Below, one piece after another: positions 934 through 22,931 of a stretch of DNA of 36,065 nt. Below the pieces are notes generated by a model. The model worked only from the letters and a program-made list of their open reading frames with translations, made no database searches and was not told the origin of the DNA. The stretch lies in IMG/VR virus record IMGVR_UViG_3300017737_000028, positions 1-36,065 of that record; one strand, 5' to 3'. The DNA is from a virus. Numbering within the stretch: the first letter of the stretch is position 1; each line of letters opens with the position of its first letter. The translations under genes were made by a program, and so were the position numbers.

Positions 934-1977
934 TTAAAAGATTACATAGTTTGCTCCACACTTAAAGTTGTACCACTCTCTATTCCAGTACTTATAATAT
1001 CTACCTTCTAAGAATACACCTAAGTGCTTGTTAAATCTGTGTCCAAATATTAAACCGCCTGAGTAATCAAGCCACTGACCACCTACTGTATTGTGATACA
1101 TATACTCACCTCCAGTGTCGTAATGGTAGGGTAAAACGTTTCCCCATGAGTGGAACCAGAAGTCGTCTGTAAAGTGATAGAAGTCGAAGCCGGCAACCAC
1201 TGAGTAATTCCACTGACGAGAGAGTTCATTTCTTTTTCTAGCAGTGTATTCAGATAAGATGTTAGGGATAGTGACTGCCTCCCAGACTTCAGTGTTTGTT
1301 GCAACGACTGTTCCGTCAGGAGCGAGGTACTCGCCTGTAGTAAGGTTGTGTGAATACCCTTCTTCAATTGCGAGGTAAGTATAGTGTATGTCTCCGTTAG
1401 AAAGCTTCCACTCTTCAAGTGGATCATATCCGTATGGCTCTGAGATACGTTGTGCAACACCTGCGTGCAAAGAAAACTTGTTACCGAGCTTGAGCCGAAA
1501 TCGTTGTGACGCCTCAAAGTATTCGATGTCTGCAAACCCATCTTCAACGTATTCAACCTTTGCCATAACCTTGTCTCCGATGTAGCGAAAGAAGTGATGC
1601 TGATTAAAAAACTCTTTGCCTTGTTGTCTTTCGTACGTAACTTCTCCAAGAAACTCTATGCCGTTACGCTTACCTATATTCGCGTCAGCAGACCAAGATG
1701 TCTCTGATCCGTCGTAAAAAGCTTGAGCTCTGTTTTCATAACCAAACCTAGCGATTTTACGAACGCCCATAGATAAGCTGTAGTCAAACGGCGTAGCTAT
1801 AGTCTCTTGAGTTAACCCACTAGTAACAGAGTATGTAGTCTGATCTGACACAGAGTTACCTCCATTAACAGCTGCATAAAACGTAGAGAACTTAAAGGCT
1901 TTTTTTAGCTCTTGAGCTTGTACTATAGTACAGCTAAATAATAAAGTTAATAATAAACTTAATCGTGGTAGTAACAT
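934..1977 (-). CDS. Outer-membrane beta-barrel-like exported protein
   Basis: The 347-residue protein has a signal peptide (MLLPRLSLLLTLLFSCTIVQAQ, cut likely near residue 22). The mature part is dominated by alternating hydrophobic/polar strands rich in Tyr, Phe, Trp and Gly, such as FGYENRAQAFYDG, FLGEVTYERQ, KVMAKVEYVEDGF, NYSVVAGFDFYHF and GVFLEGRYYKYW. It ends in an aromatic residue (NYVIF), as outer-membrane barrels often do for assembly by the BAM machinery. It overlaps the end of the giant ejection-protein gene by 19 bases, so it is late and coupled to it. I recall homologous proteins from marine Bacteroidota phages with no established role. Surface exclusion of superinfecting phage or outer-membrane destabilisation at lysis are inferences. 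A virion component is less likely because of the signal peptide. Confidence 0.75.
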   Translation of the reverse strand: MLLPRLSLLLTLLFSCTIVQAQELKKAFKFSTFYAAVNGGNSVSDQTTYSVTSGLTQETIATPFDYSLSMGVRKIARFGYENRAQAFYDGSETSWSADANIGKRNGIEFLGEVTYERQQGKEFFNQHHFFRYIGDKVMAKVEYVEDGFADIEYFEASQRFRLKLGNKFSLHAGVAQRISEPYGYDPLEEWKLSNGDIHYTYLAIEEGYSHNLTTGEYLAPDGTVVATNTEVWEAVTIPNILSEYTARKRNELSRQWNYSVVAGFDFYHFTDDFWFHSWGNVLPYHYDTGGEYMYHNTVGGQWLDYSGGLIFGHRFNKHLGVFLEGRYYKYWNREWYNFKCGANYVIF

Positions 1978-4900
1978 TTTCCTGATTTATTTTTTGTTTT
2001 CATTTTACAACGTTTACCGTCGTCCTTTATATGTGAGCATTGCACTTCGTTAGCTTGTTGAGGTACCTCATCGTGTACTGTGCAAAAGCTTTTGCCAGGT
2101 AAAGCAGTGTTAGAACAGCGCTTGCCAGATCTACTTACCGCTGCGCATTTAACTTCTTCTGCGCCTTGTTCTCTTTCCTCGTCTTGATCTAATTTATTGT
2201 CTTCAATAACCTGAAGCTCTTCGTCAGCTTTCTGTACTTCTCTTTCTATTTTCTTTTGCTCTCTTCTTTCTTTTGCCTCTGCAGCTTTAATTTCTTTTAT
2301 TTCACCTTTAGCATCTACTACGTCTTGGTTTTTAATACCAAAACTCCACTTGTTCCAGCCTAAGAACATGGCAGCTCGTTTCCAGGTTTCATTATCAGAG
2401 TCCATGGCTTCTCTGAGATTTTCAAACTTACTGTGAAGCCTACTTAAAGGTATGTTAGTTACAGCCTCTGTTACAGAAAACGAAGCGTCATATATAGGAT
2501 TATCAATATCTGTCATAGGCATTTGGTCTATAACCTCTTGATTATACTCCCAAGTACGCATACCACTAACTAGCTTTCTAGATTTAATACCTATTGGCGG
2601 TGAAAGATTAAGAGCTTCTATAAGCACGTCAGCCTCGTTGTATTCTGTAAAGTACACGTCGTCGTCTTCTTTTGCCTTTTGCTCAAGGTGCTCTAGTATA
2701 GTATTTTTTAATGTAGATACTACAGCGCCTCCAATGCCTGCTCCACGCAGTATGCTGTCTACCATACCGTTAACCACTCTTTCCTTTTTAGTATCTAAAT
2801 CATCTTCTTCCTCGTCATCACCAAACATAACACTAAACAGCGCTGTTTGAAGACCATAGAATATCATGCTTTGTACAGCGCCGTAGTATATAATTTTTGA
2901 AATATGTTCTTTTGGATCACCTCTGCCGTTAACCATATCTTGCGCGGCACGCTTCATGATTCTATTGTATTGCATTGGTGTGTTTTGGAAAGCAAGTATC
3001 AACTTACCAAGTGGAGATGCTTGTTGTTGAGATATTTTATCCGGTCTAGTAGACTGCTGAGTTTCTTCAGCTATGTCCATCATATCTTCAAAAGCCTTCG
3101 ACTCAGCCTCGTTTTGACTCATACCTTCATCCAAGTATGTTTGGATTCTATTTCTGTACATTGTAGCACCACCTGTAGCAATAGCCAAACTATCCGCTAT
3201 CTGCGTTGGCGTAAAACCAAGTTGCAGTAAGTGACTTACAATCACCTTCATTTTGTTGTCAGACTTTTCTAGGTCTTTAAGTAGCTCAGCGGCGTTTAAG
3301 TCAGTACCAATACCACCACGTCTTTGTTTTAACGTAGGTGAATTAAATATCATGGCAACGTCAGTCCAATATTGCTTTTGGTTAGCAAAAGCTTTAGCAG
3401 CTTTAAGCGGGTTGTTATCGTGCCAGTTTATAAAGTTTATATTAGAAATCATTTGTAGCACGGCTGATCTAGCGTTAAAGAACATTGTAGTACCAACAGA
3501 ACCATTAATCCAATTCATAAAGTCATTGAGTATTCTATTAGAACCAAAGTTTCTAGTGCTACCAGTTTTCATACGATACAGTATGTCTTCTATAGCCTCT
3601 CTGTGTCGCGAACCAAACACGGCCTCTATCTTATTTAGGTTTTCCTCACTAAATACAATATCAGCGTTATCGTTAAACTCTTGAAGTAACATGTCTCTTG
3701 ATTGATCTATAAGCTCAATCATATCAGACGTAATTGTACCTGCTAACCAATCTTCCTTAACATCGAGGTCCGCGCCTGGTTTGCTTTGTATTTGTGCTAA
3801 ACCATCCGCAAAAAGCTTTATAGCAGCATCATCGTTTACAGCTTTGATTAAAGCCTTGAGATCAGCATTTGATAAACCAGGTATGTCTAAACCAGCTTTG
3901 TTCCAGTTATATACCCTTATAGCCTGTTCGTACGTAAAGTCTGTACCAGGCACTTTTTTCTTTAGTTTTTTAGCAGCATCTTTATTATTGCGTTTTAAAG
4001 CTCTAACATCCGAAGAAACCTCTTGCTTGATAGCATTAACTCTTTTCATACCCTTAGAATAAGGGTCAAATAAATTCTCTTTAAACCACTGATGGTGTTG
4101 CTCACCAACTTTACCCTTGCCTAAAAAAGGATATATTAAACCTTTAAAGTTCTCCGCGGATGGAGGTAAGAAAAATTTAAACCTACCCTTGCGTTTACCG
4201 CGTTGTCTAGCTTTAGCGGCAGAAAAGGTTTTTTCTTTACCTACGTCTTTAGATTCTTCTAATATAGTATTAAAGTCGTCATTTAAATCTTTTTCACCTT
4301 CGCTTAGTATACTACTAAACTCCGCAGGTGCAGATCTACTAAATTTAGTTTTAGCTAATTCAACTTTACCCTTAATATCAAATTGGTTAAACACTTTGTT
4401 TACAGCGTCAATGTTTTGCATGGCATCGTCTGCAAAAGCAATATTGTTGTAACCTTGTGCGTGCTTATCTAGCAGCCATCTTGCTTTAGCCTCGCCAGTA
4501 GAGTTGCCTAAACCAGTTATATTTTTAAGAGGTATGTCTAAACCTAAAGCATCTAAAAACTGCTTAATAGCAGGCGCAGCTTCAGGATTTCTAGCTGTTA
4601 GTATATACGTGTCTTGTGTTCCATATTTTTTAGCTCGCCTCATGGCTTTGTCAAACATAGGACCAGGCTTACCACCAGTTACTTTGTTAAACTCAGAAAA
4701 GTCTGGCGTCCAACCTTTAGTAACTAGATCAGCTCCTTGTTTAGCAAAGTCTTCAGCACTTATTATTTTTGTTTCGCCATCTTTAGTGAATATAACGTTT
4801 GATTTTGTTGTAGCTAATGTATCATCAAAGTCCCAAGCCGTCATGCCTTTTGTTTCACCTGATCTAGAAAACTTTACAGCTTTCTTAGCGTCGTTGATTG

Positions 4901-7900
4901 TTTTTTGATCAGTAGCTATATCAGTGTTAGCCGCTAAATTACCTAGCGCTTTCTTTCTACCAGTGTTAGCTTTTCTCCAGTTTTTAATATCTATACCAGC
5001 ATCACCACCAACTGTTACGCCAGTTGACATCATGTCTAATTCTAAATCAAAACCAGCGGCAAGAAGCTGCGGTCCGTAGTATCTACCAAGTGGAGACATG
5101 TCTGGTTTTTGCCAGTAAGGAACTGTTGACTTGTAGAATAAGTTTACAATCTTGTCATACTTTTCAGGTAGATAAGCTAATCTATAGTTATCCATAGTTT
5201 GATCAAACATTGTTTTCTGGTCAACGTCACCAGTTGCTATATATCTTAATGCCTGGAGATTTACTTGAAGTGCTGGTGTCATATGCTCAAGCGTAGCTGG
5301 ACCTTTAAACTTTTTTGAAGGAACAAAGTCTAGTATAGCAGAAGCTCTAGTTAAACCTTTTTGGTTTGCGTTCATAACCTGAAGTATAGCTGTTGCTTGA
5401 CCCAAAGTTATTTCACCGTTGGCTACCATATTCCTCAGCTCTTCAACAACTTGCCTAAACGCTTGATTGTTTTCTTGCTGGGCTTTAACTACGGCTTTAT
5501 TGTTTTTTATCTTATTTACACCATCGTTGTCAAGCTTTCCCTTCATGTAGCCTGAAGGTGGCTTAGAGTATTTACCAGTCTCACCTTTTTTAGAACCAAC
5601 TAAAAGTCTAGTGTCATCTACACCGTCTACAAAATACCCTCGCTTAGGATTTGTAGCAGCTGATAAACCTGGTACTAAAAACCTTTCGTTAAACTCTGAA
5701 CTAAACTTAGCAGCTAGTTTTCCAGTAGCGTTTCTAGCTAAGTCTCTGTGCTCTGGATTTCTCATATCCAGCTCGTTCTCTGCGCCTATTATAGTTTTGT
5801 AATACTGTCTATGCTCAGTTGAATCATTAATCACATGACCTAGAATTACTTCTTCAATAGGTGTATCGATCATAACAAAGTCTGTCTGATCTTGAATATC
5901 TAAATACCTACTATATTGATCGTGTAAAGCCTGTATTTCAGTACCTATTTTATTTAGCCTTTCTGTAACTAATTTAATTTCTCTATTACCAGCTTTTCCA
6001 AACTGGTCCATAGCCATTGCTTTTATATCATCTTCTGTAAATAAACTATTGAAAGCTCCCTTAACATTGCCTGATAAACTTTTAATTATATCTAAACCTT
6101 CAGGTCTATGTAATCTATTAAGTATCGCTTGAGCTATCTTAGGGTACTTTGTTGAAGTATCCAGCAGTGTTTTAGAATAAAGTACTTTTGATTTACCGTC
6201 TTCAAACGCAAACGCGCCTTGCTCACCATCTTGTATCAAAGCCTCTTTAGCAGCTTGATTAGTTATCGCCTTGCCTGTTTGATCTATTAATGCTTTTATT
6301 CTAGCGCTAGTGTTACGATCACTTACATTAGGCGTGCCAGCCGGTGTGATACCAAATATCTCTAAAAACTCTTGCTTTGTTATATCGCCTCGTTTTACTT
6401 GAGCTGCTAGACCAGCTTTGCTCCCAGTCTTTGAAGCAGAAACTCTAGAGCCTTTAGTATATAAAGATTCTAGTAAAACTTTGTTAATACCTGTTGATTT
6501 ACCAGAACTGTCTGTTCCGTCAGGTAGCATTGCTAACAACGTATCAGCATTCTTAAGAATAAAGTTTTGAGCGTTAGCCACGTCGCCTTTACTAAGGTTG
6601 CCCGGCTTAGGCGATACACCAAACATAGTCTGTGTCTCGTCTACTAAAGCGTTACCCAGCGTTTTATAAGACTTACCGTCAGTATCAATATCTCCATTCT
6701 TAACTCCCTCAACAACACTATCGTGCATGTTTTGTCCTCGCTCCCCAAATCTATCGCCTAACCTTATGCCTTCTCTAGTTCTTGCTTGCGTGTCAATATC
6801 AACCGTTTCTTCAGCAGCTATGCCTCTAGCCTCAGTAACATCAGACTCAAAATCTGTTTTAAGTATTCTGTTAGCAGCCTCAATAGCTCTTCTATCTAAG
6901 AACTTATTGATATAAGCCGCGATAGGTACTCCAGGATTAGCATCTTGATCATACTCAAGAATCATATCGAGTATACCTCTTCTACCAGTATTAATTTCAT
7001 CTGTAAGTAACTGCCTATCAAAGCCAGGTACGTCTTGATATTTATTAACTAGCTTGTTTACTCTACCGCCAAACTCATCGATAATATCCATCGCAGCACC
7101 GACACCTTGCTCTTCATATAGAGTTTGCACACGTTCAGATGCCTCTTGCCCAGACCTTGAAAATCTTTTCTTACTAGTCTCTCCATCAAGCTTACCATCA
7201 ATTCTACTTTTTGTAAGCTTTGAAACCTCACCATTTCTAAACGCCTCAATATTACTTATCATAAAATTAAGCGCGTCCTTACTGTTATTTATTTTAAAGC
7301 CTTGCTTCGTAGCCATGTTAAACCAGTTGCGCAAACTAGTTCTACCAGCGGCTTTTTTAGCAGCGTTGAACTCACTCTTATAGTACTTATTACCAATTAT
7401 ATCTTGAACAGACTTTGTGTACTCGTCATAATACTCTTGACTACCAGATTCAAAGTTTCCTCCTCGAACCAATGCATCAACTCTATCTCTAGCAGATTGA
7501 TCCACCCACCTAAGATTTTCATCGGCAGCTAAACCTTGTTGTAAATTTACGGCAAAGTTTTCCATCTGACCTTCAGCGTTCATACCGCTTAATACGTCCA
7601 TAGCGTGAGTACCCTCGTGAAGAGCTACTGTACCCTGAAGCATTTCCCCGTTATTTAAAGCGTCCTGGACCTGCTCTGTATTGGCCATAGTTATATATTT
7701 GCCACCTACAATAGCGCCAAACTCAACACCCTCCTTAGTAGAAGACTTAAACATGTCCTGCATATCATCTCTAAGTGCGTTGTACTCGTCTTCAGTGATA
7801 TTACCATTGTCAAACTCTTGCTTAAGTTTCGCCATTAAGTCTTCGTTAGAGTCTGCTTGTATTACCTCAAAGTTACCAGCAACACTTGGATCCGCTAGTA

Positions 7901-10900
7901 TAGATTCTAAAGATATATTACCTTCACGTGCCTGTGTAGTAGTCCACCCTTTGCGGACCTGAATTTCAGTAGCGTACCTGTCTATTATAGCATCCTCTGC
8001 TTTGCGGTTTCTGTTTTTTCTACCGCTTTCGCTAAACTTACCTCCATAAACTTTTTGCTCTACGTAGTCCATCAACTCATCGTCTTTACGATGTGAGTTG
8101 ATTCTATTGTTTCTAGCTTTACGCTGCATTTCAGTATGAACAGCAACAGCCTTCTCTTTATTAGACAGCTGATCCCAACCAGGTTTTTTAGATAGTCTCT
8201 CTTGAACCTTTAATCCTTCTTCGCCATATACATCTTCTACCACGTTACCGTCTTCGTAAGCTTGAGCAACTTCGGCGTGTGTTTGGCTAATTCTATTTTG
8301 AGCGCTAGATAATCTTTGATCAAAAGATTTTAAATCACCACCGCTTAGCGTAGCCCTATGTGCTTTTAGTTTTTTATCTATTGTAGCTTGAGAATCAGAT
8401 CCTTTAACACCAGCTTCTTGATGTATTTTTAATAAAGCTTTATTAGCTTCTAGTGTAGTTTTCAAGGTCTTTGAACCACCAACTAAAACGTCAAGCTCTA
8501 GACTACCTTGTAAATTAGATAGTCTACCTACTTCTTGAAGATAATCTACTTTAAGAGCGGCTTTCTCGGCTGGTGTTGCGGCTCTTTCCATGCTAGCTGT
8601 GATCATGTCTAGATTCGTCATCACATCATTGTAGACAGCTCTAGTATCACTAGTAGCCATTGTAGATGTAAATGCGTTGTAGACGTTACCAGAACCTTGA
8701 GTTGGACCAGCTGATATGATAGAAGACAAGACTACATCAAGAGCGCCAGAGTAATCCGCGTCTTGACCTAGTATTTGAGAGCCAGCAAATTGATCACCAA
8801 AGAATATTAAACTTTCCTCAATAACTTCACTGCCTGTTTCCTTAGCAGTAGCAAGAACACCTCTGCCTACGTTTTGATACCACTTGCTAGTTGCAGCCCT
8901 AATCACATCATCAACTTCACCTCCAAAAGCTTTTAATAATTTTTGAGAGTTTATAGCTGTACCAAAGAACGTAGTTACACCGCCTTCAATAACAAGTGCT
9001 GAAGCCATAGCTAAATACAGTTCTTTATCATCTATTTCTCCAAGAATTTTGGTTTTTTCTAACTGTCCTTTTTGTACTAAATATTCAGCTGTTGAGACAT
9101 CGCCGTTTTCAAGCGCCAACTCTAAGTCTTTCAGATCTTCTTCAGCTTGCTTTCCAGCGGTACGCATGTCGTATATTTGCTTTTTCTTTTGGCCTGCAGA
9201 TCCAGTTCCAAAAATACCAAAACCAGTGGTCGCTGAGCTTCCGTATTTTATAACGTTAGCTGAAGCTCCAAGCGCTTTCAACCCAGTAGAAGTTACACCA
9301 CCTGTACCAACAGCTACTATTAAGTTTGGTAATTGCTGAGTGAAAGTTCTAGACGCATACTCGCCTTTAGCGCCTATATCCCAAGCTTCCTCACCAGTAA
9401 GCATAGTTCTGTAAACCCCTGCCCTATCGTCTATTCTTTGCAGACCTGCTAAACCTTCCTCGCTGCCAAAGAAAGACGTAGTACCCCACCACATACCTTT
9501 CCAAGCATCCATCCAGTCTTTCCACTGAACATCACGTCTATCAAATTCTTTTGAAACAGTTGCAAGTGTAGCGGCATCATCTTCAGTTTCATTAACAAAC
9601 TCTAGGTAATCAAACATTTCACCTCTAAGACCATTCATATAATCTGAATTTATAGTCTCGTATTGACCGTATAGGTTGTCTATCTTCTTTTGGAATATCT
9701 TGCGATCTTCTTCGTTACCATCCTCTGGCATATCTACTACAAGTCTAAATGTACCATCCTCAACATTACCTTCAGAGTGATAGCCATATCCTGCTTTAGC
9801 AACGTTAGCTAAAGCACCGTTGATAGTTGTAGCTAAAGTGTCGCTTTTTTGTTTTAAATGGTTTTCAATAGTAGTTTGTCTCGCGCTAAAGGCATTGATC
9901 TTGGCTTGTATATTGTGAGGCGCTGTTTTTTCGTCTATAACACCTCTTACAATATTAGCGTCTGGAGAATTTGCTATTTCTCTTTCAAGCAATACACCTC
10001 TGCGCCTAGCAACCTTTTCGTCTACAGCGGATCCCACCATAATGTTTACCATCTCAGAACCTGCAGTTAATGAGTTTTTAACTACCTCTTGACCTTCAGG
10101 TGATAAGTTCTTGTACATATCAGACTCAAGCACACCGTTAAGTCTTTGCTCTTGCCAATCTGAAGCTTTTGTTTCTTTAGTTTCGACGAATGTCCTTCCC
10201 TTCCTTTCCTTCTCTGTCGTTGTCGTGTAGTATATAGGTTCGTTAAAATATCCTGCTATTGTAGTTATTTCTTCTTCTGGTAAGTTTGAGTCTTCTAGTA
10301 TAGTTCTAACTACATCAAACGTTAAAACGTTATTGTCTTTAAGAGCTAAAGTAACAGCCCTGCCGCTGTACTCTGTTTCATCTATATCAAATGTTGATGG
10401 ATCATCACGAGTAACAATGTATTTATCTTCAAAAGCTCTAAGTTCAGTTTCAATACCACTAAGTACTTCAGCTTCTCTTTCAACCATATACTCTCTTGAG
10501 TTTTGCAAAAAGTTTACAACGGGGTTGCCGTCTGCGTCATAACCAAAACCGTTTTCCTCGTGAAAATCTTCTGCTAAGTTCCAAAAATAGTTTTGCACTT
10601 CAGCACTGCTCACCCCGCCGTAACCATTGTTCATTGTGCCACCAATGTTATTGGCATCTTCTTCGTACCTGTGATTATTTACATACCCTTCAAAATCTTC
10701 AGGCGATCCTCCTAAAACAACCTCACCGTCTTTTAATAATCTATATCCTTTTACAAACGTACCGCTTCTCCCTTTTTCGTCGTTGAGCCTATTATTACTC
10801 CATTGAGTAGGTTTTCCACCGCTAAAGTTAGCATAAATCGGCTCAACAGTATATCCAGAAGCACTAAGCACTTCGTTCATACCTTCAACGTCATTAAATT

Positions 10901-11843
10901 GATAGGCGTATTCTTCGCCGGCTTGCCCGCTAGCTGTACCAAGTATAGTTTCAGAAGCACCAAACGCTGGATCCGCGTTACCACTGTCTTTTCTTTCAAA
11001 TAAAGACCATATAGGATTAGATGCTATTTGACTGTTATCACCAGTGTTATACCACTCTGCAACAATATCTACCGTGGTATCTATTTGCTGAGGATTAGTG
11101 TCCGATATCGCAAAATACCCACCGTCTGGCCTAAACACAGCAGCGTGTTCATTAGAATATCTACCAGTGTTAGAGTGATTAGCTTGTAGGTTAGGAAGAG
11201 CTGCGACGCTTTTGAAATCTCCGGCTACAGTAGAAGAAGAGTAGTTAGACTCACCTCGATACTCTCGTTTGATATTATTTTTAAGTTCATTGCTGAATTT
11301 ATCTTCAATGCCATCAAACATGCCTGGTTGGTCTGCGGCATCGCCTTCGACATAATTAGCATCAACTTTGTCTACAAATTCTCCGTACTCAGGAAATATA
11401 TCTTTTGCTATGCTGTTAGCTATATCCCCAGTGACAGCAGTCCAATCTGTAGTCCCTACTTTTTTAGTGTAATATACCCCGTTGTCTCTCTTATAATCCC
11501 ATCCATCTCCCGTGTCCAAAACAACTTTAGGTGGATCTTTTTGCTCTTCAACTACAACTTCTTCTTCTTGCCCTTGTTCTTCAATTATAGTCTCTTCTTT
11601 GCTATCATCATCTACAACTATTTGCTCTTCATTTTCTTGCTCCAAAGAAGAGTCGTCCACGCTCACTTCCGTAGTAGACTGTAAAACTTCTGGTTGCCCT
11701 TGAGTCTCTGACTCTCCGCTCGGGCCAGTCTGAGAGTCTTGTGCTTTTTTTAATTCGTATTGTTTTATTTCTGATGCGATCTCTTCAGGAGAAGCACCAG
11801 CCTGCTCCATAACGAGTACTAACTGCTCTAATTCTTCGTTCAT
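1959..11843 (-). CDS. Giant modular ejection (internal virion/cargo) protein, polyvalent type
   Basis: This protein has 3294 residues. The first ~110 are acidic and low-complexity, followed by a GDGWDYKRDNGVYYTK block (112-135). A hydrophobic, Gly-rich region follows near 850-1090. A zincin-like motif H1409-E-G-T-H1413 lies mid-protein. RFSRSG occurs at 1560-1565. A HAD domain (D2338-F-D-D-T, T2416 in LTARN, D2472-D2473) lies between KFSRS at 2324 and KFSRS at 2500. The last ~800 residues form a conserved helical region (SPLGKLILAFQNTPMQY near 2945), an amphipathic or membrane-like segment near 2990-3010 and two zinc knuckles at 3233-3293. Size and position after the gp14/gp15-like genes suggest a packaged protein ejected with the DNA, as T7 gp16 or crAss cargo proteins are. 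There is no DxDGD motif, so it is not a visible RNA polymerase. Start codon follows the 455-residue gene by 3 bases. Confidence 0.85.
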   Translation of the reverse strand: MNEELEQLVLVMEQAGASPEEIASEIKQYELKKAQDSQTGPSGESETQGQPEVLQSTTEVSVDDSSLEQENEEQIVVDDDSKEETIIEEQGQEEEVVVEEQKDPPKVVLDTGDGWDYKRDNGVYYTKKVGTTDWTAVTGDIANSIAKDIFPEYGEFVDKVDANYVEGDAADQPGMFDGIEDKFSNELKNNIKREYRGESNYSSSTVAGDFKSVAALPNLQANHSNTGRYSNEHAAVFRPDGGYFAISDTNPQQIDTTVDIVAEWYNTGDNSQIASNPIWSLFERKDSGNADPAFGASETILGTASGQAGEEYAYQFNDVEGMNEVLSASGYTVEPIYANFSGGKPTQWSNNRLNDEKGRSGTFVKGYRLLKDGEVVLGGSPEDFEGYVNNHRYEEDANNIGGTMNNGYGGVSSAEVQNYFWNLAEDFHEENGFGYDADGNPVVNFLQNSREYMVEREAEVLSGIETELRAFEDKYIVTRDDPSTFDIDETEYSGRAVTLALKDNNVLTFDVVRTILEDSNLPEEEITTIAGYFNEPIYYTTTTEKERKGRTFVETKETKASDWQEQRLNGVLESDMYKNLSPEGQEVVKNSLTAGSEMVNIMVGSAVDEKVARRRGVLLEREIANSPDANIVRGVIDEKTAPHNIQAKINAFSARQTTIENHLKQKSDTLATTINGALANVAKAGYGYHSEGNVEDGTFRLVVDMPEDGNEEDRKIFQKKIDNLYGQYETINSDYMNGLRGEMFDYLEFVNETEDDAATLATVSKEFDRRDVQWKDWMDAWKGMWWGTTSFFGSEEGLAGLQRIDDRAGVYRTMLTGEEAWDIGAKGEYASRTFTQQLPNLIVAVGTGGVTSTGLKALGASANVIKYGSSATTGFGIFGTGSAGQKKKQIYDMRTAGKQAEEDLKDLELALENGDVSTAEYLVQKGQLEKTKILGEIDDKELYLAMASALVIEGGVTTFFGTAINSQKLLKAFGGEVDDVIRAATSKWYQNVGRGVLATAKETGSEVIEESLIFFGDQFAGSQILGQDADYSGALDVVLSSIISAGPTQGSGNVYNAFTSTMATSDTRAVYNDVMTNLDMITASMERAATPAEKAALKVDYLQEVGRLSNLQGSLELDVLVGGSKTLKTTLEANKALLKIHQEAGVKGSDSQATIDKKLKAHRATLSGGDLKSFDQRLSSAQNRISQTHAEVAQAYEDGNVVEDVYGEEGLKVQERLSKKPGWDQLSNKEKAVAVHTEMQRKARNNRINSHRKDDELMDYVEQKVYGGKFSESGRKNRNRKAEDAIIDRYATEIQVRKGWTTTQAREGNISLESILADPSVAGNFEVIQADSNEDLMAKLKQEFDNGNITEDEYNALRDDMQDMFKSSTKEGVEFGAIVGGKYITMANTEQVQDALNNGEMLQGTVALHEGTHAMDVLSGMNAEGQMENFAVNLQQGLAADENLRWVDQSARDRVDALVRGGNFESGSQEYYDEYTKSVQDIIGNKYYKSEFNAAKKAAGRTSLRNWFNMATKQGFKINNSKDALNFMISNIEAFRNGEVSKLTKSRIDGKLDGETSKKRFSRSGQEASERVQTLYEEQGVGAAMDIIDEFGGRVNKLVNKYQDVPGFDRQLLTDEINTGRRGILDMILEYDQDANPGVPIAAYINKFLDRRAIEAANRILKTDFESDVTEARGIAAEETVDIDTQARTREGIRLGDRFGERGQNMHDSVVEGVKNGDIDTDGKSYKTLGNALVDETQTMFGVSPKPGNLSKGDVANAQNFILKNADTLLAMLPDGTDSSGKSTGINKVLLESLYTKGSRVSASKTGSKAGLAAQVKRGDITKQEFLEIFGITPAGTPNVSDRNTSARIKALIDQTGKAITNQAAKEALIQDGEQGAFAFEDGKSKVLYSKTLLDTSTKYPKIAQAILNRLHRPEGLDIIKSLSGNVKGAFNSLFTEDDIKAMAMDQFGKAGNREIKLVTERLNKIGTEIQALHDQYSRYLDIQDQTDFVMIDTPIEEVILGHVINDSTEHRQYYKTIIGAENELDMRNPEHRDLARNATGKLAAKFSSEFNERFLVPGLSAATNPKRGYFVDGVDDTRLLVGSKKGETGKYSKPPSGYMKGKLDNDGVNKIKNNKAVVKAQQENNQAFRQVVEELRNMVANGEITLGQATAILQVMNANQKGLTRASAILDFVPSKKFKGPATLEHMTPALQVNLQALRYIATGDVDQKTMFDQTMDNYRLAYLPEKYDKIVNLFYKSTVPYWQKPDMSPLGRYYGPQLLAAGFDLELDMMSTGVTVGGDAGIDIKNWRKANTGRKKALGNLAANTDIATDQKTINDAKKAVKFSRSGETKGMTAWDFDDTLATTKSNVIFTKDGETKIISAEDFAKQGADLVTKGWTPDFSEFNKVTGGKPGPMFDKAMRRAKKYGTQDTYILTARNPEAAPAIKQFLDALGLDIPLKNITGLGNSTGEAKARWLLDKHAQGYNNIAFADDAMQNIDAVNKVFNQFDIKGKVELAKTKFSRSAPAEFSSILSEGEKDLNDDFNTILEESKDVGKEKTFSAAKARQRGKRKGRFKFFLPPSAENFKGLIYPFLGKGKVGEQHHQWFKENLFDPYSKGMKRVNAIKQEVSSDVRALKRNNKDAAKKLKKKVPGTDFTYEQAIRVYNWNKAGLDIPGLSNADLKALIKAVNDDAAIKLFADGLAQIQSKPGADLDVKEDWLAGTITSDMIELIDQSRDMLLQEFNDNADIVFSEENLNKIEAVFGSRHREAIEDILYRMKTGSTRNFGSNRILNDFMNWINGSVGTTMFFNARSAVLQMISNINFINWHDNNPLKAAKAFANQKQYWTDVAMIFNSPTLKQRRGGIGTDLNAAELLKDLEKSDNKMKVIVSHLLQLGFTPTQIADSLAIATGGATMYRNRIQTYLDEGMSQNEAESKAFEDMMDIAEETQQSTRPDKISQQQASPLGKLILAFQNTPMQYNRIMKRAAQDMVNGRGDPKEHISKIIYYGAVQSMIFYGLQTALFSVMFGDDEEEDDLDTKKERVVNGMVDSILRGAGIGGAVVSTLKNTILEHLEQKAKEDDDVYFTEYNEADVLIEALNLSPPIGIKSRKLVSGMRTWEYNQEVIDQMPMTDIDNPIYDASFSVTEAVTNIPLSRLHSKFENLREAMDSDNETWKRAAMFLGWNKWSFGIKNQDVVDAKGEIKEIKAAEAKERREQKKIEREVQKADEELQVIEDNKLDQDEEREQGAEEVKCAAVSRSGKRCSNTALPGKSFCTVHDEVPQQANEVQCSHIKDDGKRCKMKTKNKSGKCYYHD

Positions 11844-14765: not shown

Positions 14766-17700
14766 TTAGTTTACGTTTACAAAGTCGTCGATAAATATAT
14801 CTAAACTACCTGCTGTTTTATTTAAACCTCGAACATCTAGATATCCTGACACCACCAAGCTACCACTTACAATAGAAGCTTGGATGTGCTTAACTCGAAC
14901 AGCACCTGAGTTTGAAGACTCGTTCACATCGCTGCTAAAGCTAGTAAAATCTTCTGTATTAGTGAAAGTTAAAATAGTATCTTTTGAGATTGTCTGAGGG
15001 TTGTTTAAAGTTATTTGAGTAGCCGAGTCGACACTTTTAATAGCCGCGAACACAGAGTCTCCGTCAGTTCTTATAATACCTTCACCTTCGACTTGCATTA
15101 AAGCTTCAATGCCTCTAGTATTGTCTAACGGTACCAAAGTAGCGCTTGATACTGCTGATGTTACTCGAGCTTGAAGAACACCACCTAATCCAGTTGTAGA
15201 TCCTTTGAAGTCTATATCACTATTGTTTTTTAAATAAAGCTTTTTTCCTGAAGCAGGTGGAGCTGTTATAGAGAACGGAACTAAACCAGCGTGCTTAAAG
15301 CTGAAAGTAAGCTTAGAGTTATTAGGTAGGCTAACAGCGTTGCTAAGCGTTATCTCTTGTCTTCTTATAGATGTTATTACTGTATTCTGTGGCACGTCAT
15401 TACCAGCAAACTTAGTCATAAGCACCATGCCTGTTTTAAATTTATTTTTTCTATTTAATACAGTTATTTTTTTAGATAAAACACTATTGTTGCCTCCTCT
15501 GGTGAATACATCTTCACCTTGCCTAGTTTTTTCGCCGTAACTACCTTCATAGTTACCAGGCCTGTATATTACTTGAGTGGTTGTAGTGCCCCAGTTAGAT
15601 GTTGTAGTAGGACTAGCTTGTATAGTTAGCTTTTTTATACCTTGCTTTATAATAGAGGCTTGACCAGGTGCAGTAGGAACTCTACTAGCAACAACTGGCG
15701 CGTTACCTGAAACAGCACTAGACACAGCTTCTACTCTTATGTCGTATCTAGTTCTAGAAGTAGTTGAAGGTAAGTCAACTTCATGCGTTATTATGCCAGA
15801 ACTTCCAAACGTAGCTTCTTTATAAGAAGATGTGGTTTCAAAAATACCTTTTTCAAAGTTGTAGTACTTTGCTACCGTTGGGTTTGTTGTGCTAGTTGTT
15901 TCTTGCAAGAAAACTCTATAAGAAGCTCCTGACGCGCCGTGTACTTTGACATATGCTTTAGAAGCTTTTGATCCATAGTTACTAGTGTACGTAACGCTTT
16001 TAATATCGTCTGGAGTAGAAGTGTGGTTTTGCTTTACTTGATGATTAACAATAGCCTTGTGTCCTAACACACATATATCACTTGGATCTTGGAATAAACC
16101 GTTTTCTTCTGGTGGACTATAAAATACCTTTGCTTTAAAACCAGTTAAAGCACCTCCAGTATATACAAGATCTGTTATTTGACCATCGTAACTACTACTA
16201 TATAAACCTAAGTTTTCAAAAGATATTGAAGGAAAACTGTTACCACTTGTAGAGTAGTAATATATAGGCGCTGTGCTTGTGTCAGAAGCAAACGTAAGTT
16301 CTGCTATCATCGTCTCTGTGCCATCTTGAACAACACCGCTGTGCTTAGTTATGTTGTGAGATAAGTTAAACTCAGTTGTTTTAGATATAGTGTTGGGAGA
16401 CGTTATATTAGTAAACGCAACAGTTGAGCCACTTAGTACATCATGCTGCGTTCTAACACACGCGTTTCTTTCTCTATAAGTGTTTGCTGTAGACTTAATA
16501 TCAATATCTACTACATATGTAAAGTTATCCGCTGGCCAAGACTGAGCTGCGTCAAAATGAACTCTAGCATTCACGGTGTTAAGCGGGTCACCAGCCCCGA
16601 AAGTAGAGTCAGAAAACACAATTTTATCAATGTCAGCTAGATCATTAACGTGGGTGTCACCATCAACAGTAAACTCTAATCCTGATGCAGCTGCATCTTC
16701 TATTTCAAAGTCGGCCGCTGATAAAGGATATCCACTGTAAGAACCATTTACAATAGGCGATATTGTTAAATCTACGTAAACACTACTTCCAATAGTAGTG
16801 CTAGCGTTAACATTAAGAGTGTTAGATGCTACTGTAAATTTACTTTGCTCTGTTGCAAGAACCGTAGATGTATCAAAAGTAGTATCAGAGTTGTTAGCTA
16901 CTGTTATAGTTATAACGTCAGCCGTTCCGCTGTCATTATGTTGTATGTTGGCTAATCCAATACCTTGAACACTAAACTCTCTTTCATCTAAATTTGATAG
17001 AGCTGTTACTTCACCTGATGGATACCCAAAGTACTTATCTTCTTTATTTTTAAAGAAAACATTGCCACAGGTTTGTAAGTTAGTAGTAAGATTATCTACA
17101 TACCAACCGTTCTTTGCAGCAAGATTATAGTACTCCCCATCCGTTACATTGTCTGTGTCTACCACTCCGCTATTAGTGCTGTAATCTCCAGTAAAATAAT
17201 CTTGATTGTCTACGTCTGTAAATACAGGTATATTAGCTTGGCTACCTTCGTAATTTAACGTCATAAAACTTTTAACAGTTTCAGGTTGATCATTAAACAA
17301 TACCGTTATACTAGAGTTATCAGCTGAAGTATTACTGCCGTAGAAAGTATTGTAAGCGTTATTAGTGTGGTGCTCATATATGCCACCGCCGCTAAACGTA
17401 TAGTATGCGTTGTTTAAGCTAACTCCACTTTGTGGATAAAAAGATTTAAAGCTAGTCCAGCCGCTAGCTTGCTCACTATAAGAAATAGTAGCCTGATCAT
17501 GGTGCGTGCTCTGGTGATTAGCATACTTCTTGTAAACGCTAAGATTATACTCTTTCTTCCTTTCGTCATATGTACCTAGGCACGTGTCTACGTAAGAGCT
17601 CATAAGATCAGAAAAATAATCCTTCATACCTATGTCAGATATCGGTCTTACACCTTCGCCACTAAGTGCTAACACCTTTCCTCTCATAGCATCAGAGAAA

Positions 17701-20700
17701 TAAATAGTTGTAGGTGTAGAAGCTAGAGACTCTGGGTTTTTAGATATACCAAAATCACCTTGATAAGGAGTGACATCGCCAATAACAGTGTTACTAGATA
17801 CTAGTTGAGGCTTACCGTCTGCATTATATAAAGCGTCTTTATTTGTTACTGCTCTTAAGATCTTATCTTCGCAGAACATTACAAGTCTGGTATCTCTGTT
17901 AAATAATCTCTGTATGCTGCCGTATATAGGATTTAAATCTTTAGTTATAGCTTCTCCAGCTATGAACTGATTAGTGTTATTAACCCCGGCTGTAGAGTTA
18001 TATATACCAGACCATATCAACCCGTGTTTTCTTCTTTCTTCACGAACTTGTTCCGCTAGTACAGACGAAGCTTTCACGCCATTGTCTATTTGAGCTGTAT
18101 TAAAATCATCTCTAATTCTATCAGACTCTATACCATTACCAAAACAATAGCAGTTATTCCAGTCTAAATAATGAGTTTGAGAAAACAACTTATTGTTGTT
18201 GAAGAACGTATTTGGTCCACCGTGTAAGGTTAGAGTTGTGTTTCCAGTTGCTACTGCTCCGTTGGCTACTGCTGTGAAAGAATAATGATCCCTTTTAGTA
18301 AATAATATAGATTCATCATCGCTAATACTAGTAGACCCTATAGCTGGCGTGAATGTCACTGTTTGATTAGTAGCGGCTGTTACAGTATGCGTGTCGCTAC
18401 CAATTTTAAATGTTGAACCTAGTGGCGTTAGCTCTTCTATAGTTTGGCTATTTAAATGCAAGGGTATTAAACCGCTAGCTTGATAGTATATATCTAAATC
18501 TACACTTTCTTTAGGTTCTGTTTCCCAAACACCAGGCTTTTGAGTAAATGTACCTCTATTAGAAGCTTCTGAAGTAACTTGTACTATCTCAATAGTATCA
18601 AAGTTGCTATTGTCATGGCGTATTGCGCGTTTATAATCGTCTTCGCCAGGTACAGGTCCATTACCTATATACGTTTGATAAGTAGGGGAATCTGGGTCTA
18701 AATCCATTTCATATCCACCTGTACCAGTTGTAGGGCTGTAGTAGTATGGACCAACAGACCCAATAGGTGGGTCTACGACAATAGTCCATCTCTGTCTCAT
18801 GTTATCTACATGGTACTGATCTTTGTCTTTGTTCAACCCATTGCCACTTGTCATTCTACAGTTTCGTATGCCCCAAGCACCTTGTTGAGGATTACTACCG
18901 TTTTCAAATACACTAGTATTGTTAAAACCGTCGTTTTCTATATTTCCCCCAACAGCTACTGGAAATGGCTCACCAGATACAGTGTATACTACATTTCCTG
19001 GATCTTTTTGAAATCTAAAGCTAGTATTAGGTTGAGTAAGAGTGTTTATGAAATCTTTCGCTTTGTCGTACAGCACCATGTCATCTTGAGCATCAACCAT
19101 GACGTCTTGAAGTTGGTGCCAGAAAGGAGACACTACGCCATCACCACTGCCTTGAAAGTTACCATCACCGTCCCAAACGTATTTACCGCCGTATCCACTT
19201 GAATTACCCATACCACTCCAAGAAATATCCATGTATCTACCGCCTCCCCAAATACCTCTACTAGGCTGGCCCATGTTTTTCTTAACGTTACTAGCATTAG
19301 CGTATAGCCCACTATAGCCATCATCTTGATCTTCAGCCATACCACCTTGAGTGCCGTGCCAGAAGTGATCGTTAGTATTACCGAACGTATAACCTAAAGA
19401 ACCTTTAATTCCAGGCTTATCGTCATCCTGGTTTTGGCCGCTACCATCACCTGTTTTACCAGTCCAAGAGTACGCTGTAGCAGCGTCAATAAAGAATCTA
19501 AACTCCTTCCTCACAAACGCCCAATATTCTTGAGCGTCTCCGTCGTCATAAAACTCGTTTGTTTGAGTACCGTCACTTAGAGCATACATTGGGTTTTGAT
19601 CTAAAATTCTAGTTTGTAGACCACCAACCTCGTTTGACGCTGAGTTCCAAGGACTTGATCCTGGAACGTTATCCTCGTGTCCCCACCAGTATATGTTTTG
19701 ACCTTGACCACCTATGTCTGTGCCGCCTGTGTGGTGCGCGTATTCTGTTGGGTGTATAGGTGAAGCGGCTACGAATCTAGTTCCTGCAGTGTGGTTGTAA
19801 CCAGTGATTGGTTGAAGCTGTGGGCTCTGTGAAACGTGAACTGCACCAGAGGCGCCGTTAGGAGTAAAACCTTGATCAGCAAAATTATCATCTTGGTTGT
19901 CTCCATAATTAAACAACGAAGAGCTAGTAGTGTGTTTAGGCACAGTAGGTATTTCGCCCGTGTTTATATCAGTGTTTTTGTATGCGTTGTTAGCTATATA
20001 ACCAACGTTGTACGTTTGAACAACGTCAACGTCAGTAATAGCTGTGTTAAGTACATATCTTTCTAACGTAGCATCTTTAAGTATTTTAACAAAAAACCTA
20101 CCATCAAACTCAGGTCTGTTTTCTACTTCAAGCTCTATGAGCTCCATGCTTAAGTCTGTAATACCGTTTTCATAAGTATCGTCTGGGCTAATGAACGCAG
20201 CGGATTCATCTATGCCAGAGACTAACTGTATTTTATAAGGACCATCGTCAGTGAGTTTAGATATTCTAGATACTTCGAATTCGTTTGAAACTTGACCTTG
20301 ACCTCTAAATTTTACTACTAAAGAATCAGGAGTAAGGATATGTATTTGATCACCGTATGCGTTTTCAAAGTCCCACTCACTAATTTTTATAACAGTATTG
20401 TCTTGTAGCGGGTAACCGTCGTTACCAGCACCTATGACATCATTGCCGCCATCAAACACTGTGCCCAAAGACTTTCTTTCTGTTTTCACAAAGTCAGGTG
20501 CTTCGTTTTCTATAGCTAATATTCTGTACCTAGCTTTATCTTTTACGGCTTCATCGGTTCCGTGAGCTTTTTTAAGTACAATAAACGTTTCGTTGTCTAA
20601 TTTGTTTCTTTCTGAAGAAGGAAATGATAGCCATATATTACCATCTGCTGCAGCATACCACCTATCCATAGCCATAGTGTAGTACTCAACAGAAGTTTCC

Positions 20701-22931
20701 TTTACATAATAAGAAAAATACTCAGCCCACTCTGGGATACTAGGCGTAGAAGGATTTATTTGGCAAGTTAATCTATTCTTAGTGTCTGAATTATCTTTTA
20801 ATACCGTTATAGCGGCTTGTTTAGTAGTCAACACAGGTGTTTCTCTTCCGTATGTATCGCTAAATACTACACCGACCTGATACTTACGCATCGTCTTAAC
20901 TGACGGCTGAGCGTATTCGTAACCTCCATCAGTCAAACCTTGAGCATCAACGCCTACGTTTATAATAGGGTCTTCTAATACAGTGTAGTTCTGTAAGTAG
21001 TTTCCATAAATAAGTCTATTCGCTGTTATCTCTTGAGCTTTAGCTTGTCGCGGTACGTTGTCAAAAGGCCTTATTATTTGATTAGACGGAACTATAGCAT
21101 GGATCATGTCTGTAGTTATCTCGAACTCACCTCTTTTAGCACCTAAGGTTTCATCGCTAAAGTCAGGCCACTCATCTTGACCATCAGACTGCTTAATTGT
21201 TTTAACTGTGTATACAGCTGGCTTACCTGCTTCTTTATAAAGTAAGTCTATTTCTACAACATCCTGCGGAAAAGTTTCTTCGTTGTAGTGGTAATACTTA
21301 AGTATTAAACCACGAAGCTGATTAACCATACCTAAGTTATATCCCTTCTTAGCTAGGTAATCATAGTGATCTGGTAAAAAAGCGATCTGTGAAAAAGGCG
21401 CGAAAGGAGAGTATTCACCGTCTTGGTACTTATATCTGTATGAAAATCTAGGGAACCTATTTTCAAACATAGGTCTTTTATCTTCTAGCTTAGTGTACCA
21501 AGTTACAGCCGAAGTTGTTAATCCAGCGTCGGCGGAAAGTACGATACCTGTAAACTCGCTATTATCTAGAAAGTTTGGGTTTGTAACATTAGATCCAGTT
21601 ATTTCAATTCTAATATTATGCTCAGTAAAGCTATTTGGAGATAATGACGTATCAGCTAAGGCTACTAAAATAATATCTTTAGTTGTAGCTCGATAATCTA
21701 CATCATCTTGAAACGTCAAGGTAACTGGATCTCCAGCTTGTATTGAACCTCCAGTAGAATTAGTAAAAGCGAAATCTGGTATAACACCGTTAGTTGAGTT
21801 CTCAACTCCAGCCGAATTTACTCTCGCACTAGACGTTCTGTACATGTCTATTTCTAGCGGCTGAGTAGGAGCTTTACGTATCACAGTAACATGAGATTCG
21901 TCAACGTAAACAGGGTGAGTTTCTGCTGCGTTAGTAACTACTCTGTATCTGCTACTTTCGTCAGTATAAGAGCTTTTGTCCTTAACTAACCTAGTGTGGA
22001 ATATATCAAGGTTTTGATCTTCAAACGTAGCCGTTACATCTCCCGCGATTAAATTAACAACACCACCAGTACCAGCTATTGATCTAGATATATTTATTTT
22101 CTTTGGCTCACTAAAGTTATCTGTCCAATAAATAAAATCATCAATAATATTTACAGCGGTTATTAATCTATTCTTAGAAAAGTTTAATACTCTATTACCG
22201 TTAAACGTTATAACATCATCGTCATCAAGGCCATGAGCTTTATTTGTTGTTACTTTCCAACGGTTTAAACCGCCCGCAGTATCAAACGACACGTCCGTAA
22301 CAACTAGATTATCAGCTTCAGTAGTTTGTACTGTAGTAGCTGATGTAGTTATAAACATACCAGGTCTTATCTCACAATTCTGATTACCAGCAGAATCAAT
22401 TGCTTGTGTAGTTATATGAAATGTATTACCAGTAGCCACACCACTTCCACTAGCATCAACTTCTGCGTGAACTCTGAATATATCTACAAACACGTACTTG
22501 TTGCTTTTTGCTACAGTATCGTATTCAATGATATAATCTTTAGCGCTATTATGTGTAAAGTCAGTCGCTCCATTATCGATAGTACCAAATAAGTTAGTGC
22601 TATCGTTAGAGTCACCAGCAGAAACAAAAGAATATATTTTATCCGTAGATGGGTGGGCTATAGAAGCTACAACAGTGCTTTTAGTGTGAGGTCCGTATTT
22701 ACTAGAAACTGTACCGCCTGCACCAAGAACTATAGCAGAAGAGTTTTCATAAGTAAATAAAGTATTTTTATTAGTGTTACCTAATAACGATTGCACGGTA
22801 CCTACATTAGAACCTTCTGAAGTAGCTATTTCTATGTTATTTGCATCTCTATATTGACCATTAGGAACGACACGCTCATCCATGTCTTTGTTCATCTTGG
22901 CCGCTGAGAAAACTCTCTTTAACTCTGGCAT
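14766..22931 (-). CDS. Giant tail muzzle/stabilisation protein with adhesin-like C-terminal region
   Basis: This protein has 2721 residues. The N-terminus holds the signature of phage stabilisation (muzzle) proteins: AAKMNKDMDERVVPNGQYRD (residues 10-29) followed by EGSNVGTVQ. The best conserved core is at about 1690-1790: LVMFCEDKI, ISKNPESLA, YFSDAMRGKVLALSGEG, GMKDYFSDL and the later YDERKKEYNLS. These belong to the family that closes the tail of T7-like and crAss-like podoviruses. Between about 1060 and 1280 there is a Gly/Asn/Trp-rich insertion (YWWGHED, RGIWGGGRYMD). From about 1900 to the end the sequence is Ser/Thr-rich beta structure resembling tail-fibre or adhesin repeats, ending DIFIDDFVNVN. 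I infer a fusion of tail-closure and receptor-contact functions. It follows the ring-protein gene by 3 bases. Confidence 0.8.
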   Translation of the reverse strand: MPELKRVFSAAKMNKDMDERVVPNGQYRDANNIEIATSEGSNVGTVQSLLGNTNKNTLFTYENSSAIVLGAGGTVSSKYGPHTKSTVVASIAHPSTDKIYSFVSAGDSNDSTNLFGTIDNGATDFTHNSAKDYIIEYDTVAKSNKYVFVDIFRVHAEVDASGSGVATGNTFHITTQAIDSAGNQNCEIRPGMFITTSATTVQTTEADNLVVTDVSFDTAGGLNRWKVTTNKAHGLDDDDVITFNGNRVLNFSKNRLITAVNIIDDFIYWTDNFSEPKKINISRSIAGTGGVVNLIAGDVTATFEDQNLDIFHTRLVKDKSSYTDESSRYRVVTNAAETHPVYVDESHVTVIRKAPTQPLEIDMYRTSSARVNSAGVENSTNGVIPDFAFTNSTGGSIQAGDPVTLTFQDDVDYRATTKDIILVALADTSLSPNSFTEHNIRIEITGSNVTNPNFLDNSEFTGIVLSADAGLTTSAVTWYTKLEDKRPMFENRFPRFSYRYKYQDGEYSPFAPFSQIAFLPDHYDYLAKKGYNLGMVNQLRGLILKYYHYNEETFPQDVVEIDLLYKEAGKPAVYTVKTIKQSDGQDEWPDFSDETLGAKRGEFEITTDMIHAIVPSNQIIRPFDNVPRQAKAQEITANRLIYGNYLQNYTVLEDPIINVGVDAQGLTDGGYEYAQPSVKTMRKYQVGVVFSDTYGRETPVLTTKQAAITVLKDNSDTKNRLTCQINPSTPSIPEWAEYFSYYVKETSVEYYTMAMDRWYAAADGNIWLSFPSSERNKLDNETFIVLKKAHGTDEAVKDKARYRILAIENEAPDFVKTERKSLGTVFDGGNDVIGAGNDGYPLQDNTVIKISEWDFENAYGDQIHILTPDSLVVKFRGQGQVSNEFEVSRISKLTDDGPYKIQLVSGIDESAAFISPDDTYENGITDLSMELIELEVENRPEFDGRFFVKILKDATLERYVLNTAITDVDVVQTYNVGYIANNAYKNTDINTGEIPTVPKHTTSSSLFNYGDNQDDNFADQGFTPNGASGAVHVSQSPQLQPITGYNHTAGTRFVAASPIHPTEYAHHTGGTDIGGQGQNIYWWGHEDNVPGSSPWNSASNEVGGLQTRILDQNPMYALSDGTQTNEFYDDGDAQEYWAFVRKEFRFFIDAATAYSWTGKTGDGSGQNQDDDKPGIKGSLGYTFGNTNDHFWHGTQGGMAEDQDDGYSGLYANASNVKKNMGQPSRGIWGGGRYMDISWSGMGNSSGYGGKYVWDGDGNFQGSGDGVVSPFWHQLQDVMVDAQDDMVLYDKAKDFINTLTQPNTSFRFQKDPGNVVYTVSGEPFPVAVGGNIENDGFNNTSVFENGSNPQQGAWGIRNCRMTSGNGLNKDKDQYHVDNMRQRWTIVVDPPIGSVGPYYYSPTTGTGGYEMDLDPDSPTYQTYIGNGPVPGEDDYKRAIRHDNSNFDTIEIVQVTSEASNRGTFTQKPGVWETEPKESVDLDIYYQASGLIPLHLNSQTIEELTPLGSTFKIGSDTHTVTAATNQTVTFTPAIGSTSISDDESILFTKRDHYSFTAVANGAVATGNTTLTLHGGPNTFFNNNKLFSQTHYLDWNNCYCFGNGIESDRIRDDFNTAQIDNGVKASSVLAEQVREERRKHGLIWSGIYNSTAGVNNTNQFIAGEAITKDLNPIYGSIQRLFNRDTRLVMFCEDKILRAVTNKDALYNADGKPQLVSSNTVIGDVTPYQGDFGISKNPESLASTPTTIYFSDAMRGKVLALSGEGVRPISDIGMKDYFSDLMSSYVDTCLGTYDERKKEYNLSVYKKYANHQSTHHDQATISYSEQASGWTSFKSFYPQSGVSLNNAYYTFSGGGIYEHHTNNAYNTFYGSNTSADNSSITVLFNDQPETVKSFMTLNYEGSQANIPVFTDVDNQDYFTGDYSTNSGVVDTDNVTDGEYYNLAAKNGWYVDNLTTNLQTCGNVFFKNKEDKYFGYPSGEVTALSNLDEREFSVQGIGLANIQHNDSGTADVITITVANNSDTTFDTSTVLATEQSKFTVASNTLNVNASTTIGSSVYVDLTISPIVNGSYSGYPLSAADFEIEDAAASGLEFTVDGDTHVNDLADIDKIVFSDSTFGAGDPLNTVNARVHFDAAQSWPADNFTYVVDIDIKSTANTYRERNACVRTQHDVLSGSTVAFTNITSPNTISKTTEFNLSHNITKHSGVVQDGTETMIAELTFASDTSTAPIYYYSTSGNSFPSISFENLGLYSSSYDGQITDLVYTGGALTGFKAKVFYSPPEENGLFQDPSDICVLGHKAIVNHQVKQNHTSTPDDIKSVTYTSNYGSKASKAYVKVHGASGASYRVFLQETTSTTNPTVAKYYNFEKGIFETTSSYKEATFGSSGIITHEVDLPSTTSRTRYDIRVEAVSSAVSGNAPVVASRVPTAPGQASIIKQGIKKLTIQASPTTTSNWGTTTTQVIYRPGNYEGSYGEKTRQGEDVFTRGGNNSVLSKKITVLNRKNKFKTGMVLMTKFAGNDVPQNTVITSIRRQEITLSNAVSLPNNSKLTFSFKHAGLVPFSITAPPASGKKLYLKNNSDIDFKGSTTGLGGVLQARVTSAVSSATLVPLDNTRGIEALMQVEGEGIIRTDGDSVFAAIKSVDSATQITLNNPQTISKDTILTFTNTEDFTSFSSDVNESSNSGAVRVKHIQASIVSGSLVVSGYLDVRGLNKTAGSLDIFIDDFVNVN

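Follow-up and report, generated by a model that had tools for sequence, protein, structure and literature searches.

Concerted junction sites in a giant phage protein with an embedded zincin-like metallopeptidase: a candidate self-processing polyprotein

The giant protein and its junction sites

We analysed a 36,065-nucleotide stretch of virus DNA, IMG/VR record IMGVR_UViG_3300017737_000028 (hereafter the window), in which the large gene closing the virion module encodes a giant multidomain protein of 3294 amino acids (365 kDa; positions 1959–11843, minus strand, as are the domains and sites of the giant and the portal gene described below). The present work concerns the short sites that recur at the module borders of this protein and the peptidase that may read them. 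The gene was defined from its open reading frame (ORF) and from two full-length relatives, L081 and L082 (88% and 75% identical respectively); Pfam and PHROGs searches of the giant itself gave nothing useful. Three regions stand out along the polypeptide: a predicted zincin-like metallopeptidase domain (residues ~1350–1551, extent approximate; 7191–7796), an HAD-like phosphatase domain (residues 2335–2495; 4359–4841) with the pattern DFDDT...LTAR...DD, and a conserved C-terminal helical domain (residues 2520–3110; 2514–4286) that is common to all giants of the clade. The HAD domain was recognised by profile, with matches in all relatives, and by Foldseek, whose top matches were a class C acid phosphatase (probability 0.98), a haloacid dehalogenase (0.94) and other HAD structures (0.82), none with an E value below 0.001; both the DxDxT motif I, here DFDDT, and a Rossmann-like HAD fold are present. 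In some giants of alignment A3 (L163, L177, L178, L186 and L187), AAA_33/Zeta-toxin-like kinase profiles match upstream of HAD, and HAD motif I seems to be separated from the remaining HAD domain by extra, inserted sequence; such a kinase and phosphatase together would resemble a polynucleotide kinase-phosphatase. At the extreme C-terminus of the window protein (residues ~3245–3294; window ~1962–2110) two Cys/His knuckle-like repeats, CAAVSRSGKRCSNTALPGKSFCTVH and CSHIKDDGKRCKMKTKNKSGKCYYH, lie in tandem; they are kept in L081 and L082, and L127 seems to end with a similar repeat.

The original prediction had drawn attention to three copies of an FSRS motif at apparent domain borders, and all three lie exactly where it had placed them: RFSRSG (site 1, residues 1560–1565; 7149–7166), 151 residues after the HEXXH motif of the peptidase, KFSRSG (site 2, residues 2324–2329; 4857–4874), directly before HAD, and KFSRSA (site 3, residues 2500–2505; 4329–4346), directly after it. 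Sites 2 and 3 do frame the HAD domain, each within about ten residues of its limits, and the codons of the three copies differ in the window sequence as claimed. A fourth copy, LYSKTL (site 1b, residues 1888–1893; 6165–6182), had been overlooked. On the basis of composition, [KR]FSR[SA] would be expected 0.006 times and FSRS 0.02 times in the giant; however, eight tetrapeptides (FSRS and seven others) occur three times each, so the case for the motif from this single protein is weak after the fact. In AlphaFold models of moderate confidence (mean predicted local distance difference test score, pLDDT, 69–71), site 1 falls inside a segment with pLDDT<50 (1552–1566), as does site 3 (2499–2517), whereas LYSK of site 1b is at the edge of such a segment (1889–1899) and site 2 is in a block of mean pLDDT ~52 just ahead of the first HAD strand. 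The FSRS sites of the window protein thus sit in predicted linkers.

Enrichment of the motif in homologous giants

Homologous giants were collected by two scans based on alignments to the HAD–C-terminal part, in both cases from among the matches listed (at least 599 candidate stretches). The first scan gave at least 93 giants, reduced to 78 by discarding those with redundant upstream parts, and the second gave 27 further independent giants, which were used as a replicate. In these relatives the HAD and C-terminal domains are ~43–55% identical and the upstream parts differ; by tblastn, no isolate phage in the collection searched carries the HAD–C-terminal part. Upstream of HAD in the 78 giants, FS[KR] occurred 117 times against 50.5 expected (2.3-fold, p ~1e-15), ranking third among all tripeptides when K and R were counted as one, and the longer form [KR]FS[KR][STA] was found 16 times in the giants against 1.4 expected. 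The 456 other ORFs taken from these loci showed no enrichment (50 against 51.8 expected). The replicate agreed, with 37 against 17.1 expected in the 27 new giants and 27 against 40 in the control ORFs. The motif is therefore not a peculiarity of the window protein. As first written, [KR]FSR[SA], it was real but too narrow: the wider consensus has V/I at −2, K, Q or M at −1 and S/T at +3, giving approximately [VI][KQM][FY]S[KR][ST] for the family, with each phage having its own version.

The sites recur at ~150 and ~530–580 residues after HEXXH, at 10–22 residues before HAD and at 5 residues after it. BLAST alignments between giants ended within 8 residues of a site 417 times, compared with 139±28 at random places of the same proteins (0/1000), a roughly threefold concentration part of which may be explained by the motif itself holding alignments. 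Border position and protein-level conservation, both proposed from the window protein, thus hold in the homologues, where the sites coincide with homology breaks and not with random positions. Residues flanking the sites are poorer in hydrophobic residues. Location at homology breakpoints in polar, low-hydrophobicity flanks would also suit a passive linker, driven by composition or tolerant of recombination, inherited from common ancestry and read by nothing, and the post-HAD site is indeed homologous across the clade. The variation of the copies, described next, makes this explanation very improbable.

Concerted variation of the copies within each protein

When letters were shuffled among proteins within position classes, copies in the same protein proved to be more alike than expected at −1 (65/202 against 27.1; z 8.5), +3 (z 6.2), +4 (z 3.8) and −2 (z 2.6). 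No such excess was seen from −10 to −3, and from +5 onward it was at most weak; since it is confined to −2 to +4 and not found in the flanks, composition is ruled out as its cause. The −1 excess was reached in 1/2000 shuffles with one protein per 65% cluster, equally with one per 60% cluster, and in 9/2000 with only eight 55% clusters, and the effect was replicated in the 27 new giants (−1, 24/49 against 11.5; +3, 14 against 4.6). Moreover, the borders before and after HAD, which are not homologous to each other, matched best within their own protein (20.1 against 16.2, 0/5000), and this persisted in the 23 proteins without FS[KR] after HAD (20.4 against 15.5, 0/5000). Several giants have a different motif at both HAD borders, such as RSIEYTE/KSIEYSE in L136 and RSANPSK/RSVDPSK in L162, and L143 has SSENPT/LSENPS there and RSQNPT after its peptidase. 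In L109, a close relative of the window protein, xSQD[VT] occupies all four positions: KSSQDV, YSQDV, KRSQDT and KFSQDV correspond to RFSRSG, LYSKTL, KFSRSG and KFSRSA of the window respectively.

A passive linker is disfavoured by this concerted variation, as flanks inherited with the sites do not share it, non-homologous borders match even without FS[KR], and the motif recurs in an unrelated lineage (see below). Within-protein similarity could also be accounted for by duplication or gene conversion of DNA, spreading a short cassette between the borders of each gene. However, synonymous codons of the copies agreed at chance level (417/733 against 397±11.5), and the three FSRS copies of the window differ in codons. 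Direct DNA duplication was rejected as the source of the sites on this comparison, and of the explanations considered this mechanism is the least credible, with hardly any probability left to it. Concerted change at all sites implies a reader common to them. Repeated cognate sites between modules are what a self-processing polyprotein would contain.

The embedded peptidase as candidate reader

The peptidase domain, also overlooked originally, contains the catalytic motif HEGTH (residues 1409–1413; 7605–7619) and a predicted third zinc ligand, Glu1474 (7422–7424; invariant column E190 of alignment A2), 61 residues after the second histidine. His1409, Glu1410, His1413 and Glu1474 are invariant in 24 aligned giants, and the AlphaFold model shows two strands followed by an HEXXH helix and a Glu helix. 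HEXXH with a downstream glutamate is the signature reported for the zincin metallopeptidases (MPTases) of polyvalent proteins (Iyer et al. 2017, PMC5512222). Of the giants whose upstream part is complete, L133 alone lacks an HEXXH motif; the others each have one or more. L083 had been a candidate giant without peptidase and was rejected when a direct search found HEIFH at 1562. A tblastn search with the peptidase of a relative found none in phages or plasmids.

Two results connect the sites with the peptidase. A site lies 110–170 residues after HEXXH in 25/75 giants against 6.7 expected (replicate, 6/27 against 2.3). In addition, similarity of the motifs correlated weakly with peptidase distance in a partial Mantel test that controlled for HAD and both terminal regions (r=0.17, 2/2000), whereas the corresponding test failed with HAD or the N-terminal region and was marginal with the C-terminal domain (75/2000).

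Processing of internal virion proteins is a common task of prohead proteases in other phages, which favours the alternative that the sites are cut by a protease other than the embedded zincin, either a prohead protease encoded elsewhere in the phage or a host protease. L133 (4433–12589, on the same contig as L208) points in the same direction, as it keeps a matched site pair despite having HDAFH, a degenerate HDxxH, in place of HEXXH. Sites of a shared head protease should, however, be enriched in other ORFs of the loci, other head proteins included, and they are not; the clustering 110–170 residues after HEXXH occurs in two unrelated lineages, and motif similarity follows, weakly, the zincin rather than the other domains. 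We consider another protease unlikely. L133 was also tried as a clean control with neither peptidase nor motif and was rejected because both its HAD borders share FSES. Its peptidase is perhaps decaying or altered; L133 is the one observation that we cannot fit into the scheme proposed below.

Comparison with other lineages and known systems

The original prediction's mention of similar xFSR motifs in other phage polyvalent proteins was right for the LPD38 giants of Proteobacteria prophages and phages, a separate lineage set apart by its defining domain, because these are enriched in the motif and have it after their peptidase. Among 27 non-redundant LPD38 giants, [FY]S[KR] was found 65 times against 36.6 expected (controls, 53 against 57) and [FY]S[KR][STAN]G 9 times against 0.8 (controls, 0 against 1.1). 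As in the window protein, an HEXXH or HEXXXH peptidase is followed by a site at 110–170 residues, in 10/33 cases against 1.9 expected. Five LPD38 giants (L299, L315, L316, L347 and L359) have two or more peptidase motifs, most of which are then followed by [FY]S[KR] at ~+127 to +201.

Phage N4 (Schitoviridae) provides a contrasting case. Its virion RNA polymerase (vRNAP) is, like the window protein, a giant ejected virion protein (~3500 amino acids) with an HExxH-bearing domain, C1 (PMC12633501). Unlike the window protein, N4-like polymerases lack the junction motif after the zincin (1 against 1.4 expected in 34 proteins), and N4 vRNAP is reported to be packaged without processing, its zincin region being needed for encapsidation (PMC5512222). 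With a polymerase reportedly packaged uncut, this group serves as a natural negative control, although from a single lineage. The requirement of the zincin region in an uncut protein also bears on a different explanation of the sites, namely that the borders stay uncut and act as docking motifs, binding a scaffold, a portal/ejection partner or the zincin domain; concerted variation reveals a common reader and not what that reader does. Sites that lie between folded modules, in linkers predicted to be disordered, suit cutting better, as does the absence of the motif in a lineage that keeps its zincin unprocessed, and we regard docking as improbable, to about the same degree as another protease. 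In N4 vRNAP itself (L107, residues ~2365–2392), TLFHSKAYGN lies at HEXXH+159, near the published C1/C2 border, and the related form LF[HM]S[KR]A was found only in close N4 relatives.

The window protein agrees with the polyvalent proteins of phages and conjugative elements, which are giant, multidomain and probably virion-delivered, with mosaic modules and a zincin-like peptidase with HEXXH and glutamate, and for whose MPTase auto-processing has already been proposed (Iyer et al. 2017, PMC5512222). It combines several enzymatic modules in one polypeptide (zincin signature, HAD and the conserved C-terminal domain), and the clustering of homology ends at junction sites indicates mosaic exchange of modules among relatives. 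It differs in that its peptidase is beyond the reach of Pfam PF18818 and in its sites, since the available text describes no junction or cleavage-site motif and contains neither 'FSR' nor 'linker'. The same report notes a zincin domain in phage P1 DdrB and its processing to ~76 kDa (PMC5512222). In DdrB, unlike the window protein, the zincin is at the C-terminus and [FY]S[KR] does not occur; the lone KRFSYN, at 757, was rejected as a site, as it would give 82.7 kDa, no clear match to ~76 kDa. Proteobacterial PF18818 matches were not useful for comparison, being mostly short proteins (open frames of 300–400 amino acids).

The virus and neighbouring genes

The portal protein gene (28280–30652; phrog_6547, E 6.5e-142) places the virus near podoviruses of Flavobacteriia, and the portal and neighbouring genes have kin in Cellulophaga, Flavobacterium, Tenacibaculum and Maribacter phages. 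The giants that Cellulophaga and elemo phages encode at the corresponding genome position carry an annotation as structural proteins; by extension, the present virus probably injects its giant protein into the bacterium. A second very large ORF (14766–22931; 2721 amino acids) lies between the head genes and the giant; it has no Pfam matches, and the junction motif is absent from it except for one NFSK.

Self-processing as the favoured explanation

Taken together, our results make it somewhat more probable than otherwise that the giant is a self-processing polyprotein whose embedded zincin-like metallopeptidase recognises, and probably cuts, phage-specific junction sites. That the peptidase is the reader, that it cuts, and the bond and timing of the cut are what we infer from the computed enrichment, border position, concerted variation and intact signature described above. 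The peptidase would recognise a site some seven residues long, here [KRL][FY]S[RK][ST], and free itself at site 1, which follows its own domain; the remaining sites, one following the next module and two flanking HAD, would be cut as well, separating the other modules and releasing effector modules, either at the maturation stage or following ejection. Cutting at all four sites of the window protein would yield fragments of about 172, 35, 49, 19 and 90 kDa. Every phage lineage would have its own version of the site, uniform within a protein because one reader must recognise all copies. We give about even odds to the broader proposal that such a zincin cuts at every module border, that protease and sites co-evolve, and that the scheme recurs in unrelated polyvalent lineages and is absent from the uncut N4 type. 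Among the functions first suggested for the motif, a processing site therefore appears to fit best, a docking tag keeps the small probability given above, and a recombination-tolerant linker has lost ground.

Several observations weigh against this explanation. None of 25 clade records matches PF18818 (MPTase-PolyVal), Foldseek returned no zincin among the matches to the peptidase model (of moderate confidence), and the peptidases of relatives gave weak metallopeptidase matches only (M78, M1 and DUF6782); membership of the zincins accordingly rests on the residues, the strand–helix order and these weak matches. The Mantel correlation with the peptidase is small, L133 shares FSES between its HAD borders despite its HDxxH, and no cutting is known for the corresponding domain of the N4 lineage. 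Not every giant shows a recognisable site at every border, and a first enrichment test on 11 proteins was modest (21 against 10.7, rank 64) before being superseded by the larger set.

In RNA virus polyproteins, one embedded protease serves several similar junction sites, which change together between lineages. The proposed scheme has the same elements, an embedded protease and several cognate sites, whereas the window giant belongs to a double-stranded DNA phage, is probably virion-delivered and has an unrelated protease, with cutting suggested by the pattern of its sites. No previous description of the motif, or of junction sites that vary in concert, turned up in the literature searched, which covered few preprints or subscription journals. 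Since 2017 it has been an open question why polyvalent phage proteins contain zincin peptidases, and a recognition sequence that is repeated at the borders and varies in concert allows a direct and inexpensive test of whether cutting occurs at the named residues. The junction motif can also be used to locate module borders in giant phage proteins that have no annotation, and, if the sites are cut as proposed, the giants would supply natural pairs of protease and site that differ in specificity.

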